From contig JAHLJZ010000002.1 of NCBI GenBank assembly GCA_025602915.1, positions 558,001-622,000 of the forward strand: a DNA stretch of 64,000 nucleotides, in the 5' to 3' direction. This DNA comes from Paraphysoderma sedebokerense. Its lineage: Eukaryota; Blastocladiomycota; Physodermatomycetes; Physodermatales; Physodermataceae. The position numbers and the translations under genes were made by a program. The notes under the pieces are model-generated. The model made no database searches. It was not told the origin of the DNA and worked only from the letters and a program-made list of their open reading frames with translations. Below are positions 1 through 40,672 of this stretch, piece by piece (the first letter of the stretch is position 1; each line of letters opens with the position of its first letter).

Positions 1-1697
1 CGGGTTTGATTGTCTCTTTTTGTTGGCACCCTTCACAGTCCATCATAGTTATCTTTTTTTTATAGTTTTCGTCGAACAATTCAGAATCCAAATTGTCTCA
101 ATCTTATCGCGGTATCCGATTTGCAATTATCTTCAGCATACAATTTTCCCGTTGCTCACTTCACCCGCGCAGTTTATATATGAGCCAAGTAATGCAATAA
201 AAATCTGGGAAAAGCGATATGCCGTGTGTGTATAGAAATAAGAGTTTTCATTATCTATTGAATCATACATTACTAAACAAATAACACAAATGTATATCCA
301 TGTTATTATAAGTGGCGCCACTTCCATCTAAGATGCCACTCCTTATCACTGCCGTCATTGAAAATTAATGCAAAAATATTTTGGAAAATCATATCTCCAC
401 AATTCTGCTTTCGTTTCTATTCGTTTCCTATTATCCTATATTAGCCGTAAATCTTAGCATGGACTATGGAGTCGTCGAGTGTCGGAAAATCGGAAGAGGT
501 CGCAACTCAGAAGTCGGAAGAATATCGGAGACTCGGAAATCCTTCGGTGCGCCATCAAGGATATCAGAATTCCGACACGTCTAAAATAGCAAGGATCATT
601 CTGATTCAACTATGTAATTATCATGGAATGGAAGTAGGAGACAGCCAGTGTTCATCATAGGATATTAGTTGAATATCAACAGTAGGGCACTGGGAAACAG
701 TAGATAACAGAATCAAAAATAGTAACCTGATATCCCTTTTGATAACCCATTATTTTCTGAATTGACCGCGATACTTTAGTCTGAAACTAATTTCTCCCAA
801 ATTGAGAATGTGATCCAGAGACTCGAACCTTTTCAGCTTAAAATGATATGCCGAAGAAATTTGGTGACTAAACTGTCACTAACCACCAAAGTCCTGAAAC
901 AAGCAGGAATAGGTGAAGAGAGTATGACGAGTAGATGGAAGAAAACCAGAGAAATAAATCAAACGCATAAATTCTACACGATTTGATTATGCGCCAACGA
1001 TCCAAGGCATTGGGAAGTCAGTAAATAACATCCGTAATTGGAGTGAAATAACAGAAAGTATAGCTTTATCTGTATTTATCTGTAGTATGCGGAACACAAT
1101 TATCTGTGTACTCCCATTATGTATTGACACATTGAGAGATTACGCTTGCACAACATTTTTCACTACCACAGCGCATAAAATCAGTCAAATTGATAGCTGC
1201 TATGGCATATTGTGAGGGAAAATCATCACTTACGGGCGAAATCCTGAAAATTTATTCAGAGAAAATCGACGATCCCAGATAAGTCATCAATTGTATACTA
1301 ATACTTGCGTCTTGCAGCCTCGGTCGCGATGCCCCGAACTCATGCACCAACTGTTCACTTGGTCTCCCAACCGCGAAAATGGGAACCGGGTCATATCCGA
1401 CAACGTCACCACACTGTCGCTAATACTATAACATGGTACTTTGATGATGCAACATGAATATGTATACTCTAGAAACATTGGCATTCAACGTAGTTTTGAG
1501 TCTCCGTAGAGTAATACGTGCCAAAACGCAGCACCAACCATGTGATAGTGATTTGCCACTCCAATAGTGTTGACACTTGCGGAATTTTCAACATCGCTTG
1601 CTCCTCCTTTCTATCTCCCTCCCCAATTTCCAATCCTTCCCGGACGACAGATTGCAACTGCTAATCCCACCCCAAACATCCTCTTTGCTGCGTCGAA
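1..1697. other. intergenic, no gene seen
   Basis: No open frame here is long, spliceable or protein-like on either strand. There is one weak diverged direct repeat: a stretch near 687-710 resembles one near 1005-1028, both containing a GGGAA..CAGTA.ATAACA core. The last 100 bases are pyrimidine-rich and probably hold the promoter and 5' UTR of the lipoxygenase gene that starts at 1698. Confidence 0.6.
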
Positions 1698-3888
1698 ATG
1701 CCCGTTGCGAAACCCCTAAGTCGCCGTAGTTCGTCCAGTGGACTTCTTCCTGGCGGGAAACCTTTGAGCCGAAGAGAGTCACGAGACAGGCTATTTCAGT
1801 CTATGTCAAAGATTAGGGAGCTCCAACCAGAATCCCTCCCCATTCCACCGGCTAGATTTCAACCGAATAAAGATTATCGCTCCATGGAATATGAATTAAA
1901 CAAACCTCTTCAAACTCTAGTTGCCGGTGTCACGGTTTTCGTGTTTCTCCCATTCTTCTCACTGCTAATTGCGGCATCCTACTGGGTAAGATTGTAAGTT
2001 TGCCTAAGTTTGACTTTCGATGTAAGAATACATGAGAAGATCTGATTACTTATTGCATCTCTTAGAGTGGAGGCTTTGAACACCGTTCCATACTTTCGGG
2101 ACATCGTCAATGCATTTCGCTCCGCACTTGCATTTACTTCATCGCCAATTACGAATGGACCACTCTTACCAAAGAATCCCCCCTTCCCAGAAACCGTTGA
2201 GTTTACCGTCATCAAGAGTCCGTGGTATATCTTCCGCATAGGTAATTTCTTTATTTGCTGAAGCACGCTAGGTAACGGCTAATTATTTCGATGATAGTGA
2301 TGTGCTCAATCTTGTTCCTCGTAAGAGGAGGTTTAACAACAAAGAAAGTTCGCGTATTAGACGATACCGAATTTGGTGATTACATCGGTCACACCATGTT
2401 CAGTCAGTACTTACAAAGGAGTGACACTCCTGATGGGGAAACGCGATACTATTTGAATCTGGAAGAAGTAAGAGATTTGGAAACTTGGAATGGAATGTTC
2501 TGCTCCGCTACGGAAACTGTGTTCAAAAAATCGCAAAGCGGATTTTTAATTCCTTTGTCAATTACTATGGAAAATGGCTGTACCTTCACGCCTCAGTCGG
2601 CTCCCTCGAAATGGAATCTGGCAAAATTATTTGTCATGAATGGCCTCGTTTACGTTACTATTCACGGTCGCCACCCGACTTTACATTTCCCATATGACAC
2701 TGTTAATGCAAGTATTTTTTGCTTCTATATAATATTGGATGTCATGCTAACAAACAATGTTATCGTCCAAATTATAGGTTGTAACCAAGCGAATTCTTCC
2801 TCCGAACCACCCTGTTTCAAAACTACTCTATCCTCATTTCCGCTTCTCTATGGTTCTTAACGTCAATGTTTTAACAGAATCTACCTCTGCTTCCTTTTAT
2901 CACTGGTAAGTGTATCATTAACTCACAAGACGTTTTATGTGGTGTTAACTGCGTTTGCGAACGCCAGGTGGAAACCGTATTATGCTGTCACTTGCTCCGA
3001 AGAAGAAATCTTCGGTAAAATCATGCGAAGAGGCTACGAAAAATGGTAATTATCAATTCTCAGTCTTGTTGTCTGAACTATGAGGAGGAAATTAATGCGA
3101 TATTAATTTCCTTCGTCATTAATAGGTCGTTCCGCAAATTCCCCAAATTGAATCCAGAATTTCCTTATGATTACTCCCTTCTTTCCTATTATCAATGTAT
3201 CCGTCGCTTCGTCACCAACCTGATGCCATTCATCCCGGCTGATGACTTCATCTTCCGTTGGGGCGACGAAATCGCCAAACTCATTCCTGGGTTTCCTAAT
3301 GGTTCCAAATTAGTATCGACTGAGGGAAGAGAAGATCTTATTGATGTTTTGACGATGACTATCTTTTCTGTCGGCGTTCATCATAATACTGGTATAGTTC
3401 TATTTTTTTCATCAGCTATCATATTAGTTTCACTCACCCCTTATATATTTCTTAGATCATTATTCGTTCAGTCATCTCGATCACCGTATTCTTCCCATGA
3501 GAATCCGTTTACCACCGCCTACTTACGATTCTGAAAATGACCATTTCAATGAAGAGGATTGTATGTCGAGAATGGATTACTTCAAGGTCAGTTGCCCTCT
3601 CTTATATGCATACTTCATAATTTCCCAGCCTAATCTGGATCTGTATTACCTCAACATAAACAGCAAGCGCATTTCCAAAATCTCGCTGTCTGGCCCGCGC
3701 CATCGGCCTTCCCCATTCTGACGAAAGACACACGGTTTATGAACGTTGACTACAAATTTATCAACCCTCAGATGAAGGAGATGCAAGCTGCATTTAAAAA
3801 AGACTTGCGCGATACTGCTGCCAAGTTGAAATCATATTTCGGCGAAATTCTTCCGTTGTCAGATATCGTTAGCAGTACCGAATTCTGA
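1698..3888 (+). CDS. membrane-anchored lipoxygenase (copy A)
   Basis: Lipoxygenase, a non-heme metal dioxygenase that adds O2 to polyunsaturated fatty acids. There are eight exons, all phase-checked: 1698-1993, 2066-2241, 2298-2707, 2778-2905, 2968-3045, 3126-3391, 3456-3586, 3664-3888; 569 aa. A basic serine-rich N-terminus is followed by a hydrophobic helix at about residues 75-97, so the enzyme is probably membrane-bound; no PLAT domain is seen. The first ligand pair is HPTLH (codons at 2672 and 2684), the HX3H spacing of fungal Mn-lipoxygenases. It is followed by the LOX signature HPVSKLLYPHFRFSMVLN. The second ligand block reads VHHNTDHYSF, and the usual XPPP block follows (RLPPP). The chain ends SSTEF, where the family normally ends in Ile or Val. 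The third intron has a GC donor. Neighbour 8560-10574 is a paralogue. The family call is confident; metal, substrate and activity are unknown. Confidence 0.88.
2708..2777 (+). other. GC-AG intron in lipoxygenase A
   Basis: The donor is AAT|GCAAGT and the acceptor is ATTATAG|GTT. Only this GC donor keeps frame, giving DTVN-VVTKRIL, colinear with DVVN-YATKKIL in the paralogue, which has no intron here. The overlapping GT at 2712 would shift the frame. GCAAGT is the known consensus of GC-AG introns. Confidence 0.8.
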
Positions 3889-4505
3889 TCATGTGTATTA
3901 TAAAGTTGCCGGCGATTGTACATGGATAGCTTAAAATTTTCGTTTTAAGAGATCATGGTTGAAAAAGTTTATTGTTTTTCCATTCTCTACAAATCCACTA
4001 GATATTTAAATGTTTTCTTTAATAAATGTACAAAAACATTTCGTACTGTTACGTTATCATCAACGTTAGACGGACTATTAATTTGAGGGCGACTTAATAT
4101 GAAGCGACGTAGATGAGAATGTGATAATTGGGATTTCCAAGGCGGCAGATGTATTCATTTCAAACTGATGGATCACGTTAAGGTAGCCTTGATGTAATAC
4201 ACCCCACCGTTTTGACGAATGCACGGACAATTTACTCTTTACATAACTTTTACGGCCGACGGTAAAGCAGGTATTCGCACAATCATATTCATTCAAAATT
4301 GAACATATTTGCTGCAATTTGTGTTTCAATAGGTAGTACCATATACTGGGATGCGTGGACAATTGAAAATCCCTAAGCGGATCAGGAACGAGTCACCAGT
4401 CCGTCGGATTTTCACAACAACCGGAGCATTTCTTTTGAGTACCACCCAGAATCTGATCTGGTAATCGGCTATCCATATCGCCTCATATCTGTTAGCGACA
4501 CGAAA
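3889..4505. other. intergenic, 3' and 5' flanks
   Basis: This AT-rich stretch lies between lipoxygenase A and the DPY-30/GAF gene. Its first 150 bases contain AATAAA at about 4020, a likely polyadenylation signal for the upstream gene. No protein-like frame is seen; the open frames are antisense and show no family resemblance. Confidence 0.6.
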
Positions 4506-7500
4506 ATGCCAACCGCAACAAAGAAAGATAAATCCTTTCGAATGATTGAAGGCAATCACAGCGACAACTTCTTGGTAGACATGTTTCTAGAGCGACTTAG
4601 TGCTGCGAACATTGAACAGCGGGCGTACATGATAGAGAATGTTCTACCGACTTTGATTATTGGGTGTGAAAAACTTGCCAAGGAAATAGCACCTATATCC
4701 CCTATTGACAGTAGTGCAACGGGAAAATTCTTGTCACAACAGGGAGAACGTATTCGAAAGTTTGACATCTATCATGACAACCTACCGACAGATTTTAATC
4801 CTATTCGGTGGCTGGCACAATATCTATTCCGAAACAGTAAGTGGCTCATATGTCTGTACGATTCCATGATGCATAGCCGATCACTAACCGATATTCAAGA
4901 TCCTAGACACTCTCAGTCAAGTCGCTGCCCTTCTTATATCAGTGCGATGTCGAATGTGCAACAAGAATTAAAGCAACGATTGCGTGAATTGCAAAAAATC
5001 AGGATAGAGAGTCTTGAAGCTCAGAAAAGGGAACAAGGAAGGAACGATGTATGGAAAAATGTGTCAGATGAACAAGCAGAGGAACGGATTCGCCACCAAA
5101 TGGGTGAATTTCTTTCCACTGGTTCAAGTTTCATGACGCAGTTTAGGATGGTATGCGTTTTCTTGAGTATGGCTTTAACGCTGTGGCTGATTCAATTGGC
5201 ATGTTTAGCTTCGAGTCTTGAAGGAGCTTCTTAGAACTGTGTCTGCCACGCCAACGAAAACGACCAGCAACATTAAGTGTTTAATAGACAAGCTTCAACG
5301 TATACCTCCTGAATCGACAATATCAGCGGATATGCTCGTAGCAATTTTATCTGGCTGGTCTGCGGAAGAGCTCGACATGCTTTTCGATAGGTTGCATTCC
5401 CAAGAAGACGACTATGCATTGATCGAAAACATTTATTTCGGAAGTGCGATATTTCAAAATAGAGAAAGCTTAATCATTGCTTTGAAGAGGTTGATAGATG
5501 ATATGCATTTAGAAAGTTTAGCCGATAATGAGTTGTTACAATCAGCGGTGAATGACTTCTGCGTCAAGACTCACAAAACCGGCGATTTGAATACCTTCGG
5601 CAATTTTATTTCGTTCATTACGGAACTTTCTGTTTTGCTGCCTCACACCACAAGTAAGGTGTTTATTCAAGCCTTTGATAGGCAATTGCGAAGCTCAAGG
5701 GACCAGCAGACGCTTTATGATCCTTCGCCTTTGTCAGTGATTCCAAATTTGACGGATTCTAATTTGACCAGTGAAAATGAAACGGAACAGACCTCCGTCA
5801 AGTTAAAGGTTTCCGACGTTTCGACTCAAATCAGATTTCAATCACCCGCTTCCACTCCCATAGGCGAAAGTGAATCACTGCAGATTTATAAGCAAGACTT
5901 GTTACGCAAATTGGAGACTCTGATGGGAGCGACAACAATGGAACAAATCGCGACTGAAGCTGTTGGATACATTACCGAGTTTTTCAATAGAGTATATTTT
6001 CCGACGCCTGGCCAAACATTAGTGGCTGAGATGTTCTTTGTTGAAGAAATGGAGAATACGAACAGTAGCACCGGACAGTTACAACCAGTGCTAATTGCTG
6101 TTGCGGTGAATGGAGAAACCCAATATCATTTAGGGGCAAGAATAACTGACGGCGCATTAGTTGACGTTGCACTGACTGGGGTAGCACGGAACTTGATACT
6201 TGCCATTGACCAACGAGCAGTTGTCAATCCAACAGCAGTATTGGCTGATTTGCCTGAAGTATTAGATGCGAACGCTCGGATTGGGCCAGTCCTATTGGTA
6301 CCGATTTCCTCTATCACTAGACCTTTCGGTGTCTTGAAAATTTCTGCCATGCACTCTGGAGAGAGTGGCAACACAGTTCTTCAAAGCATTAGAGAGAATG
6401 GCGGTGAGACATCAGCAGTTATAACTCCCTTTGAAGAATTCCACTTAAGAGCTGTAGAGGTATGACGCTAATTGTTCGTAGCAGTATTAATCCCGTCACT
6501 AATTTAAGATTCGCAGTCCGCTGCACATTTGATTGCGGGATGTTTGGAGAGTATCAAACGTCGGAAGAAATTTCAAGCAATCGCCGCGTCATCCGTGAAC
6601 TGGTTTCGTCAGGCTGCATGCGTTGATGTAGACTTTTACTTTGTGGAGTCACCCGGCTGGAACGTGGAAAGCAACGAACAAAATGATGACCGCATTCGAC
6701 TCTTTCATCTCCAAACTGATGTAGGTTCTCAAAGCAAGCTGGACGATGTGGATGACCCGGAAACACACAACCAAGAAAAGGAAACTATGCCGCCGCTGAC
6801 GGAAATTTCCAGCGTCGATAGCACGAAGTTAGTATCACTCATTGTGTGCTCTATTTTACGTTTATCCTCATTGGGATCACTCTAGGGCTTTTATATTTCG
6901 CGCTGTCAGCACTGGGGAAACCCAATTGGCACCGGTCGAGCACCTCGCTAGGAGAACTGCGATACCTATTTTCGACGAAGAAACCAAGAAAGTAATTGCT
7001 GTGGTTGTGGCGGAACCAGTTCTAAGCAAAGATGAATCCTTCGAACTGACTGAAACCGATACAAAATGCGACGCGGAAGCCATCAACGCAGGAATCAAAG
7101 CTATTGAGAAAGCATTCACTGAGGCTCATAAAAATCGTAATGAACGAACCGCTACCGGTAGAAGAGGTGAGTTGGATGCTCTTTAGTGAAAAGCTCCCGT
7201 TGAAATTAACTAATTAAGTTGTTCTCAATAGGAAAATCGTTGGATCATTCCGACAAGGAGGAAGTGCTCTTCGGGAAGTTTATCCTTAACGGTATTCGCG
7301 AACTCATTGCAAAGTTAGATTCGTCGGCGATTGCAGAGCTAAAATCCTACAAGAAACCACCGGTATGCCACTGTATTATTTGTCATCGTAGCGTGCTGAA
7401 CAAACTTATTTTTATGGAGACAGCTCACAATACACAAAGTGATGAAGTGTGTCCTCTATGTCTTCGGGAAGACCCCGAAGGAACTGAAATCATGGATTGA

Positions 7501-8002
7501 AACTACCAAAGTAAGTATTGATTATACTCTCATCTTCCGTTGCTTGACTTCCCTTTTAACAGTTCATTCTAGCTGATCAACATGGAGCTCCTGAAGCAAA
7601 TGATAAACTACGATCCAACTGTCCTTCAGCCAAAGAATAGATTTGTAAGGATTAAAAAACTGTTGAAAAGTAATCATAGTGTTTTCATTTATTTACCAGA
7701 GTGACTCAGAACCTGACGTTGCGATTTCTCCAGCGATTCCGCGAGGTGATGTCAAGCGGAAGGGATCAATGCCCGCATTAATTGTTTTCTCCTGGCTAAT
7801 TGTCTCCTTGGACCTCCGAGAGAAAGCAGTGGCATCAAGACTGGCTCTGCAAAAGAATGAAAAGGGCGATACTTTGATGGCTGACTCAGACAATAGCAAT
7901 AGCCTCGAAGATAACGACATTGACGAATTCTCCGATGAGGAAAGTGAGAGTAAAGATGAATTACGTAATTCAGCAACCGATTTGGCGATTTCATCATCAT
8001 GA
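4506..8002 (+). CDS. DPY-30/GAF-domain axonemal-type protein
   Basis: A 1,005-aa protein in nine phase-checked exons: 4506-4836, 4900-5150, 5209-6459, 6517-6827, 6886-7166, 7232-7362, 7424-7510, 7573-7644, 7700-8002. Residues 25-60 form a DPY-30/RIIa-like helical pair. The motif NPIRWLAQYLFRNNPR follows near residue 100, as in several flagellar DPY-30 proteins, then a charged coiled coil (about 135-170). Two GAF-like domains follow (about 480-640 and 650-850). The next segment (SYKKPPLTIHKVMKCVLY then YDPT) looks like the dynein-stalk-type PP..V..VM module. The tail is acidic and serine-rich. This order resembles radial-spoke protein 2 (DPY-30 plus GAF) and EFCAB5-like proteins. The role in a cilium or flagellum is inference; no EF-hand is evident. 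Confidence 0.75.
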
Positions 8003-8559
8003 ATTTTGAATCCTCTGAATCATACACGCGTCCAATAATACAATAGATTTGAGGTAATTTGATGATATAAAGTCGCCTTCAGCTTGACGAATTACTTGAG
8101 CCAGTCTGTAGCGGGTCAAATATTATATTTCATTGCCAATATGAACTTTTGAGTACCAATGATAAAATGTATTTATCATATTTACGTGGGAGATAGAAAA
8201 TAAAATCGAGGGACGTCGCGATATGTCATTGTATTCTAGGGCCTAGGCTGTTTCCTCAGTGATCCTCGCTGCGACATGGCTCCCGCCTCCCATCAAATCA
8301 GTTGATTCACTTAATTTCAATTTTCAGCAATTTTTCAGTCTACGACTCTACACTCTATACATATTATATCGTGCTGTGACGTCTATAAAATATTAAAGCT
8401 GCAGACACTGGATATTGATACGTGCACTGAACTACTTTCGAACGAAATACTATTATCATTCCCTGGATACTCTCCTAAACGCGCACACTTCAGCCGAATT
8501 AACTCTAAGGGGACGGGTGGTCCGCATTATACCATTATCACCTTGAGTAGCTATTGAAG
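8003..8559. other. intergenic
   Basis: This contains the 3' flank of the DPY-30/GAF gene and the upstream region of lipoxygenase B. I see no coding potential, RNA gene or clear TATA box close to the start at 8560. Confidence 0.6.
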
Positions 8560-10574
8560 ATGCCCGTGAAAAGAAAACCAGTTAAGTCATTACAGACACT
8601 TAAAACAGTTAAAGTTACAGAAGACGAAGAAGAAACTCTTGAACCGCCGCCAGTTTCGCCGACTAAATTCACAGCGAATGCCAATTTTCGGACAATGGTA
8701 ATTTCATATGATTAGTACTGCGATGGAACATATGGACTAAAAATCATGGTATCTTACAGGAATATGAGCTCACTCCCAAATACCAAACTCTTTTTGGCGG
8801 CTTCATAATGGTTCTACTTTCTCCGTTATTTTTCATTCTTGTCAGCTTAGCATGGACTGTCCGTTGGGCGGAAAAGGTTTTCGCGTCGTCGTTTCTTCGC
8901 GATTTGTATCATTCTGTAAATTCATCAATAACCATGGTTCCCGGACCAGTGAAAAATGGACCAAAGTTACCCAAAAATCCTCCAATTACGGAGGTATTGG
9001 AGTTCGAAGCAATTAAGTCTCCATGGTACAAGATTTTTTGTTGGCAATTTCCGCCGTATCATAACCTAAGCAAAATCTTTAAATAGGTTCATTTTTCGTA
9101 TTGTCACAGGAACGGTACTTCTACTCTTGAAAGGAGGATTAACATGCGCCAAAGTTCGGCTGCTTAATGATTTGGAGTTTGGAGACTATATCAACAAAAC
9201 ACTGTTTGCCCAATACCTGGTAAAGAAATATAAAGATGGGGAAGATTTCTACGTGCTGGAGTTGGACGAACTCAAGGGATTAAAGACTTGGTCCGGCACT
9301 TTTTTAAGCGCATCCACAACTTTATTTCGGAGATCGTTTGAAGGAAAATTGATTCCCGTGTCAATATCCCTGGAGAATGGATGTACATTTTATCCGGACT
9401 CGCAACCCCAGTGGAAGTGGAACTTAGCCAAGCTTTTCGTAATGCAAGGTCTGGTTTATACCACAATTGTTGGTCGCCACCCTCATCATCATTTTCCGTA
9501 TGATGTGGTGAACTATGCTACGAAAAAAATTCTTCACCCTAGCCATTCTCTTTATAAACTCTTGGTGCCTCATTTTCGCTTTTCCATGGTTCTAAATATC
9601 ATGGTTTTATCAGATCCCAACAGTGTCCTATTTCCGGATTGGTGGTGGGTGTCTATGAACTATAACGCTTTATCGTTAAATTTTAGCTAACGTCAATCTC
9701 TTCAGGAAGCCTTATTATTCGCTTACTTTGGATAGCTCTGAAATTTTTGGTAAGCTGATGGAACGAGGATGGGAAAAATGGTCTTTCCAGAGATATCCTA
9801 CCCTATCAACCGAGTTCGTGTATGGCTACAGTTTAATGAATTATTACAACTGCATACGTCGATTTATTGCTAGGTGCGTTCACCCGAATTATCTACTGTC
9901 AGGCTCCAAAAATTCACGTCCTACTACGTCATAGGCTTTCCCCCCACATTCCCCGAGACGATTTTGTCCTACAGTGGGGTAACGAAATTGCCCAACATCT
10001 CTCGGGTTTTCCTTCTGGGTTTGAACTCGTTAAAGATGAGGAGTTATTCGTCGACATTCTTACGATGGTGATATTCACTGTTTCGGTACATCACTGCGCG
10101 GTACGTTTTGATTCGCAATGTTAATCAATTGAAAACTAATTTATTCTCTTGAAAGGATCATTACTGCTTCAGTCATTTGGATCAGAGAGTGTTACCTTTC
10201 CGTTTACGAATTCCGCCTCCGTCCCATTCTTCAAACGCTAAATCCTTTGACGAAAATGAACTAATGACTCGTTTGGATTTCTTAAAGGTACACATCTTAT
10301 GAATGAAGGATCTCTTGTTTTAACAGTATTAAGTTATTTTCTCTGGTAGCAAATTCACTTTCAAAATATTGGTGCATATCCCGGCAAAGTACAATATCCA
10401 TTCTTAGTTGAAGACACAAGTCTTATAAAAGTAGATTATAAGTTTCCAGATATAGAAATGAAGCAAGCACAAGAAGTTTTTAAGACGGAATTGAAGGAGA
10501 CAGCGGCGTGGTTGAACGAGCAAGTCGGAGACGTTATTCCGCTTGAAGACATGGTTTGTAGCATAGAATTCTAA
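8560..10574 (+). CDS. membrane-anchored lipoxygenase (copy B)
   Basis: Paralogue of the gene at 1698-3888; 550 aa in seven phase-checked exons: 8560-8697, 8760-9025, 9087-9644, 9706-9873, 9935-10100, 10156-10287, 10350-10574. A 46-residue lysine-rich leader precedes a transmembrane helix at about 56-75 (GGFIMVLLSPLFFILVSLAW). The first ligand block is GRHPHHHFPYD (HX3H), followed by HSLYKLLVPHFRFSMVLN. The second block is VHHCADHYCF, then RIPPP. The C-terminus is CSIEF. Both copies share the non-canonical HHxxDHYxF block and the terminal Phe, so these are lineage features rather than decay. The intron set matches copy A except for an extra intron in the leader and loss of the GC-AG intron and one upstream intron. 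The product probably oxygenates fatty acids at a membrane; specificity cannot be read from sequence. Confidence 0.88.
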
Positions 10575-40169: not shown

Positions 40170-40672
40170 AAAATTAGTTGATCCTAGATAATTTAAGATC
40201 TAAGTTATGTAAAACAGCTTTGTATTTAGAGTAACATATTCTGGACCATATTGTCAGTCAAGTAGATTTTTGACGAGGTGCCCTTTCAAGAGAATAAATT
40301 AGTTTTCAAATGATTAACATTGCGAATCAAAACGTACCGCGCAGTGATGTACCGAAACAGTAAATATCACCATCGTAAGGATGTCGACGAATAACTCCTC
40401 ATCTTTAACGAGTTCAAACCCAGAAGGAAAACCCGAGAGATGTTGGGCAATTTCGTTACCCCACTGTAGGACAAAATCGTCTCAGTTGGACGGCATCCGA
40501 GCAAACCAGTACACCAAGGAGGACGCGCATTTAACCCTCATGGGGGAAGAAATAGAGCTTGCAACTGCAACAGAATGTGACACTCAGGAGCATACCGATT
40601 ACCATCGTTGTCCACTCCCACCATGCTTTTGTAATCCCTCATAAGCACGATGTCATGAACCTTGCAAACGGA

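Follow-up and report, generated by a model that had tools for sequence, protein, structure and literature searches.

Lipoxygenase-like genes of Paraphysoderma sedebokerense and their bacterial relatives: a candidate subfamily with an aromatic C-terminus

Introduction

Does the metal site of a lipoxygenase admit a different set of ligands? The question is raised by two lipoxygenase-like genes on the plus strand of contig C2 of the blastocladiomycete fungus Paraphysoderma sedebokerense (genome size 27.3 Mb): gene 1 at 1698..3888 and gene 2 at 8560..10574 of a window of 64,000 nucleotides, which is the whole stretch of DNA analyzed here. The initial annotation took both products for membrane-anchored lipoxygenases in which Asp is aligned with the usual Asn/His ligand, or the His pair is shifted by one, and in which Phe stands where the carboxylate of a C-terminal Ile or Val binds metal. 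The reading that we favor, and consider probable, is that genes 1 and 2 are intact, belong to a lipoxygenase branch of their own and have gained an N-terminal membrane segment, and that their products are metal-holding dioxygenases acting on polyunsaturated lipid. Judged by alignment, the ligand set appears to be the familiar one of four His and the C-terminal carboxylate; the spacing change that emerges as real is that from HX4H to HX3H in the first ligand pair.

The metal site

HX3H, RxPPP, HHxxDHYxF and a terminal Phe can all be read in both spliced proteins, as had been claimed. The longer motif HPxxKLLxPHFRFSMVLN, also assigned to both, holds in its KLLxPHFRFSMVLN part; the HP start is found in gene 1 and is replaced by HS in gene 2. 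Alignments place the presumed first and second metal ligands in HPTLH of gene 1 (2672..2686) and in HPHHH of gene 2 (9478..9492; His266 and His270). The second presumed ligand block is split by an intron in each gene: HHNTDH of gene 1 spans 3382..3460 (His codons 3382-3384 and 3458-3460, intron 3392-3455 between them) and HHCADH of gene 2 spans 10092..10161 (His430 at 10092-10094, His434 at 10159-10161, intron 10101-10155 between them). They read on to HHNTDHYSF and HHCADHYCF, respectively.

The register of these blocks was judged from five residue-level alignments with known lipoxygenases, made with phmmer (ALOX15B), hmmsearch (ALOX12), hhalign (twice) and MAFFT. (Twelve ordinary lipoxygenases were aligned with MAFFT and ten displayed, all ten in the same register; numbering here is that of P0001, a paralogue encoded on contig C87.) The phmmer, hmmsearch and MAFFT alignments and one of the two made with hhalign put H428 on the third His and H432 on the fourth-ligand position, occupied in known enzymes by Asn, His or Ser. 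D431 falls one place earlier, on a non-ligand column, in all five; the proposed match of the Asp to the Asn/His ligand thus fails. So does the shift of the His pair, since it is the second His of HH that sits on the third ligand and the first is, among the aligned rows, peculiar to the fungus. PMC13059375 gives His, Asn and Ser as possible fourth ligands, and PMC11011848 describes a four-His site in rabbit 15-lipoxygenase.

H264 and H268 align with the first ligand pair and have one residue fewer between them (hmmsearch, one hhalign, MAFFT). HX3H had been counted as part of the ordinary lipoxygenase core, but ordinary lipoxygenases read HX4H (ten of the ten displayed). Loss of the first ligand His was considered and is ruled out by a recount against the soybean first pair, His499 and His504: HX3H sits on the usual pair. 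We treat the spacing as a subfamily trait because the same spacing is present in a Mn-lipoxygenase.

Conservation was read from an alignment, A3, of 107 rows (five from Paraphysoderma) out of 125 family hits (P0001-P0007 and P0022-P0139), four partial proteins and 14 whole near copies being left out; none of the 14 vertebrate hits was used, as they lie outside the family. All 107 rows have HX3H and H-x-x-[D/E]-H, and H264, H268, H295, H428, H432, R446, R448 and P452 are invariant. The three fixed His ligand positions, as placed by alignment with known ligands, are thus His throughout, and so is the fourth-ligand position, where His, Asn or Ser is expected. The residue at D431 is Asp in 105 rows and Glu in two. 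H428 is preceded by His in the five Paraphysoderma rows and by some other residue in the remaining 102.

The C-terminus and the predicted fold

The proteins end in SSTEF (gene 1) and CSIEF (gene 2). The Phe codon of gene 1 lies at 3883..3885 (from the translation and the family alignment) and that of Phe550 of gene 2 at 10569..10571 (from the translation and the model of P0001). Tyr or Phe ends 105 of the 107 rows of A3, the other two being public models that lack the last part; among the 102 rows from outside Paraphysoderma, Tyr is found in 62 and Phe in 40. The 14 whole near copies likewise have HX3H and H-x-x-[D/E]-H and terminate in Phe. The terminal ligand of lipoxygenases is usually Ile and very occasionally Val, as stated in PMC13059375; the usual residues are replaced here by Phe or Tyr.

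The AlphaFold-type model of P0001 is predicted to have the fold of the lipoxygenase catalytic domain. Its structure alignments to solved lipoxygenases run at 11-20% identity, and its last residue is also the last aligned in 49 of 50 rows among the matches listed. (A model of the metagenomic relative P0006, with five rows and a predicted local-distance difference score, pLDDT, of 62, was too weak and was not used.) Since the C-terminal carboxylate ligand is a main-chain group, it is not lost merely because the last residue is Phe. The initial annotation was right about the Phe.

The N-terminal segment

The transmembrane helix claimed for both copies is upheld as a strong hydrophobic, presumably membrane-spanning, segment at about residues 70-100 of gene 1 (1905..1993; Kyte-Doolittle peak 2.52) and at residues 54-83 of gene 2 (8781..8870; peak 2.40). 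Such a segment lies within residues 51-100 of all eight Paraphysoderma copies tested (peaks 2.1-3.2), and the first 110 residues contain one in just four of 114 other relatives longer than 400 residues (from P0022-P0139). The membrane segment therefore looks like a fungal addition.

Copies in the fungal genome

Contig C2 carries lipoxygenase-like copies at ~545-549 kb (two, minus strand), at 559.7-568.6 kb (genes 1 and 2) and at 633-640 kb (three in tandem, plus strand), and the paralogue P0001 lies on C87. All eight share H-x3-HF, HH-x-x-DHY-x-F and an EF end. At ~64-65 kb of contig C6 (within 62500-67500) there is a ninth, divergent copy with HPKIHF, NHCVDH and a SIDF end, in which Asn takes the place of the first His of the double His; its splicing was judged by eye and its start is uncertain, so that it could represent either a gene or a copy in decay. 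The copy number is at least nine, the searches of the fungus's own genome having scored the best candidates only. All seven matches in the genome to PF00305, the Pfam lipoxygenase family, are copies of the family described here.

The three tandem copies (C2 631500-641000) have a single intron in the part read, as against seven and six in genes 1 and 2, which points to intron loss or gain within one family. Compared pairwise, they have a nonsynonymous divergence (dN) of 0.09-0.15, a synonymous divergence (dS) of 1.3-2.1 and dN/dS of 0.07-0.11, values that are rough at such dS; the silent sites of genes 1 and 2 are saturated. The sister copies are under purifying selection. Decay of the genes is ruled out by these ratios, which agree with the earlier suggestion that the shared changes reflect function.

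Relatives and their spread

A search with gene 2 found 21 proteins: five of Paraphysoderma (P0001-P0005, which carry the name lipoxygenase in public records), two distant metagenomic proteins (P0006 and P0007) and 14 vertebrate lipoxygenases (13 from fish, one from axolotl). The alignment A2 retrieved 124 matches, of which the best 120 are listed. Most of those listed are without a name or are called "hypothetical protein", and a few are named lipoxygenase; their named sources include Algoriphagus, Prolixibacteraceae, Bdellovibrionota and Myxococcota, among others, and one partial protein is labeled archaeal. Only three of the 118 new rows have a precomputed PF00305 label, and none of eight proteins compared with NCBIfam matched at E 1. 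The scan of prokaryote genomes gave 16 loci, every one with a bacterial title. A search with the fungal copies alone returned four of themselves and one weak match; other eukaryotic members may have been missed, because only the 7992 candidates sharing most words were scored. No viral relative is encoded among the 33 stretches that matched the patterns.

Scanned with the A3 profile, the phylum of Bacteriovorax (G002) shows family members in 14 of 191 genomes and that of Algoriphagus (G001) in one of 296, the seed itself; some of the genomes scanned were seeds, and the counts are not estimates of prevalence. Matches occur in 19 of 188 genomes of the phylum of the Polyangiaceae genome G004: six genomes (seven loci) score 380-610 bits over nearly full length and the remainder 22-71 bits. 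Among the weak matches read, L055 and L057 are ordinary lipoxygenases. The very divergent locus L054 (genome G529 of the same phylum; 71 bits) has HAWSH, an HX3H block, together with HAADH and a C-terminal Phe, and is perhaps a deep branch of the family. (The rows of L020, L023, L027, L028, L033, L051 and L056, for which wrong frames had been picked, were left out of the reading of loci.)

Trees place the family apart from ordinary lipoxygenases. The first, of 62 rows, separates it from 12 of these with a support of 99 in the Shimodaira-Hasegawa-like approximate likelihood-ratio test (SH-aLRT), and groups the eight fungal copies (99) beside, not inside, a bacterial clade (98). The second, of 60 rows, with the ninth copy added and L054, P0130 and L030, which the first tree contains, dropped as long branches, gives the same picture; holding the nine fungal copies together gave a likelihood 6.8 above that of the free search (approximately unbiased test, p 0.673). 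These were quick searches without bootstrap, and the program warned that long branches meet where the ordinary rows join the family. A distribution that is broad in bacteria and limited to one fungus suggests that the fungus acquired the gene by transfer; the trees do not show direction.

The notion of a separate lipoxygenase subfamily is thus supported by the shared ligand blocks, the Tyr/Phe ends and the trees, and we refer to it as the aromatic-C-terminus branch. It is larger than first claimed, with over a hundred mostly unnamed microbial relatives that combine HX3H with a terminal Tyr or Phe. What recurs among the relatives is H-x-x-[D/E]-H with a Tyr/Phe end; the double His is, in the aligned rows, confined to Paraphysoderma. 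We found no paper on this branch among open-licence papers, which is weak evidence of absence.

Function and its alternatives

If genes 1 and 2 encode dioxygenases, one non-haem metal ion (Fe or Mn) would be held by His266, His270, His430 and His434 of gene 2, with the main-chain carboxylate of the last Phe as a further ligand. The HX4H helix would have lost one residue to become HX3H, and the terminal aromatic side chain would occupy the place of the Ile found elsewhere. At the membrane, the enzyme would abstract hydrogen from a polyunsaturated fatty acid or phospholipid and add O2 to yield hydroperoxides; the likeliest substrates would be lipids from the membranes of the fungus itself or of the alga that it infects.

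Several observations pull the other way. The hhalign alignment with a bacterial profile matches the others as far as D431 but has a gap at the fourth-ligand position, and the structural model is that of P0001 rather than of gene 1 or gene 2. PF00305 is missed at E 0.01 by 20 of the 41 relatives scanned. The site aligned with soybean Ala542 (V306 of P0001), which steers oxygenation and is Ala or Gly in most lipoxygenases, is Val in 105 of 107 rows and Ala in two, so that the outcome of oxygenation could differ.

That Val would also fit an enzyme with the same fold and metal site whose main reaction is something other than dioxygenation, a hydroperoxide isomerase or epoxyalcohol synthase of the kind that mammalian ALOXE3 is, acting behind another lipoxygenase. 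Such a partner exists in two Algoriphagus genomes, where the family gene stands head to head with another lipoxygenase: 3526-5691 (minus strand) with 6001-7419 (plus) at locus L013, and 1048-3213 (minus) with 3583-4998 (plus) at L014. The L013 partner reads HX4H, HX3N and a C-terminal Ile, and the L014 partner is 70% identical to it; L015 ends before the place of the partner. Weakly in the same direction, three of the 14 vertebrate matches to gene 2 are ALOXE3-like, the best slightly above the ALOX15B-like ones. The pairing is not general, however: in the one Bacteriovorax genome tested (G002) there is no PF00305 match besides a family gene, and the fungal PF00305 matches are all family copies. 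We regard this alternative as unlikely. The L013 pair is followed by a 1707-residue open frame that, read by eye, resembles a kinase-ATPase-cyclase signaling protein. The bacterial neighbors, which were listed and partly read by eye without a family search, indicate no shared pathway beyond the Algoriphagus pair.

Further from the favored reading is a lipoxygenase-like protein that has lost catalysis and is retained as a binding protein or scaffold. The low identity to solved lipoxygenases and the missed PF00305 matches are compatible with it, but in dead enzymes some of the conserved residues would be expected to go, and the four His, the two Arg of RxR and the Pro after them persist in 107 of 107 rows; we judge it improbable. 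The case for a truly altered coordination set, in which the metal is bound by the Asp or by the first of the two His in HH, draws on the near invariance of the acidic residue (D431 of P0001), which a mere spacer need not have. Against this stand the five alignments, the invariant His that follows, and the absence of the first His from all 102 other relatives; we consider it very improbable.

Gene structure and surroundings

Gene 1 encodes 569 residues in eight exons (1698-1993, 2066-2241, 2298-2707, 2778-2905, 2968-3045, 3126-3391, 3456-3586 and 3664-3888) and gene 2 encodes 550 in seven (8560-8697, 8760-9025, 9087-9644, 9706-9873, 9935-10100, 10156-10287 and 10350-10574). Both give full open frames after splicing, with no loss of frame; 12 of the 13 introns are GT-AG and one (gene 1, 2708-2777) is GC-AG. 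Their PF00305 scores of 24.2 and 29.1 bits exceed the curated Pfam cut-off of 23.6, and the match is weak, spanning only residues 219-323 and 197-306, respectively. The last 413 residues agree between gene 1 and the public protein P0004, which lacks the first two exons of the gene. This agreement and the low dN/dS of the tandem sister copies argue that genes 1 and 2 are not chance frames. Public models P0003 and P0005 lack the C-terminus; the genomic loci there read STEF.

Contamination is ruled out by the seven and six introns and by the ~850 kb contig with its Dpy-30, NXF, TPPII, TRAPPC13 and RhoGAP frames. The frame with the Dpy-30 motif (4506-5234, plus strand) lies between genes 1 and 2 and is probably part of a separate gene. 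A 202-base piece of gene 2, covering part of an exon and the next intron (9955-10156), is repeated at 40282-40483 on the minus strand of the window with 98.5% identity; it is a recent partial genomic duplication, and no further piece of gene 2 was found beside it.

Known lipoxygenases and significance

The branch differs from the animal lipoxygenases (ALOX12, ALOX15, ALOX15B, 5-lipoxygenase and coral 8R-lipoxygenase) in having HX3H for HX4H, an Asp before the fourth ligand, a Phe/Tyr end for Ile, and Val at the soybean Ala542 site; Pfam found no PLAT domain in genes 1 and 2, and the fungal copies add their hydrophobic segment. Fungal Mn-lipoxygenases are secreted and have Asn at the fourth position; the sequence similarity of the branch to their solved representative (PDB 5fx8, 5fno) is weak, at E 0.075. 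Ordinary bacterial lipoxygenases (those of P. aeruginosa, Cyanothece and Enhygromyxa, and L029, L035, L055 and L057) lie on the other side of the tree (SH-aLRT 99), and the last four have HX4H, no Asp in the second block and an Ile or Leu end, unlike the branch. Lipoxygenases occur in no more than 0.5% of sequenced bacteria, according to PMC11011848.

More speculatively, and with considerable doubt on our part, this may be a hitherto unrecognized deep lipoxygenase branch that spans several phyla of bacteria and has expanded in one fungus parasitic on algae. HX3H, the acidic residue next to the fourth ligand and the Tyr/Phe end would then have tuned its metal site to a reaction or a metal new to lipoxygenases. 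The branch extends the known range of the lipoxygenase metal site and offers natural test cases of how the C-terminal residue and the helix spacing set metal and redox behavior, and it reveals that a parasite of a commercial alga has multiplied such genes in its genome.

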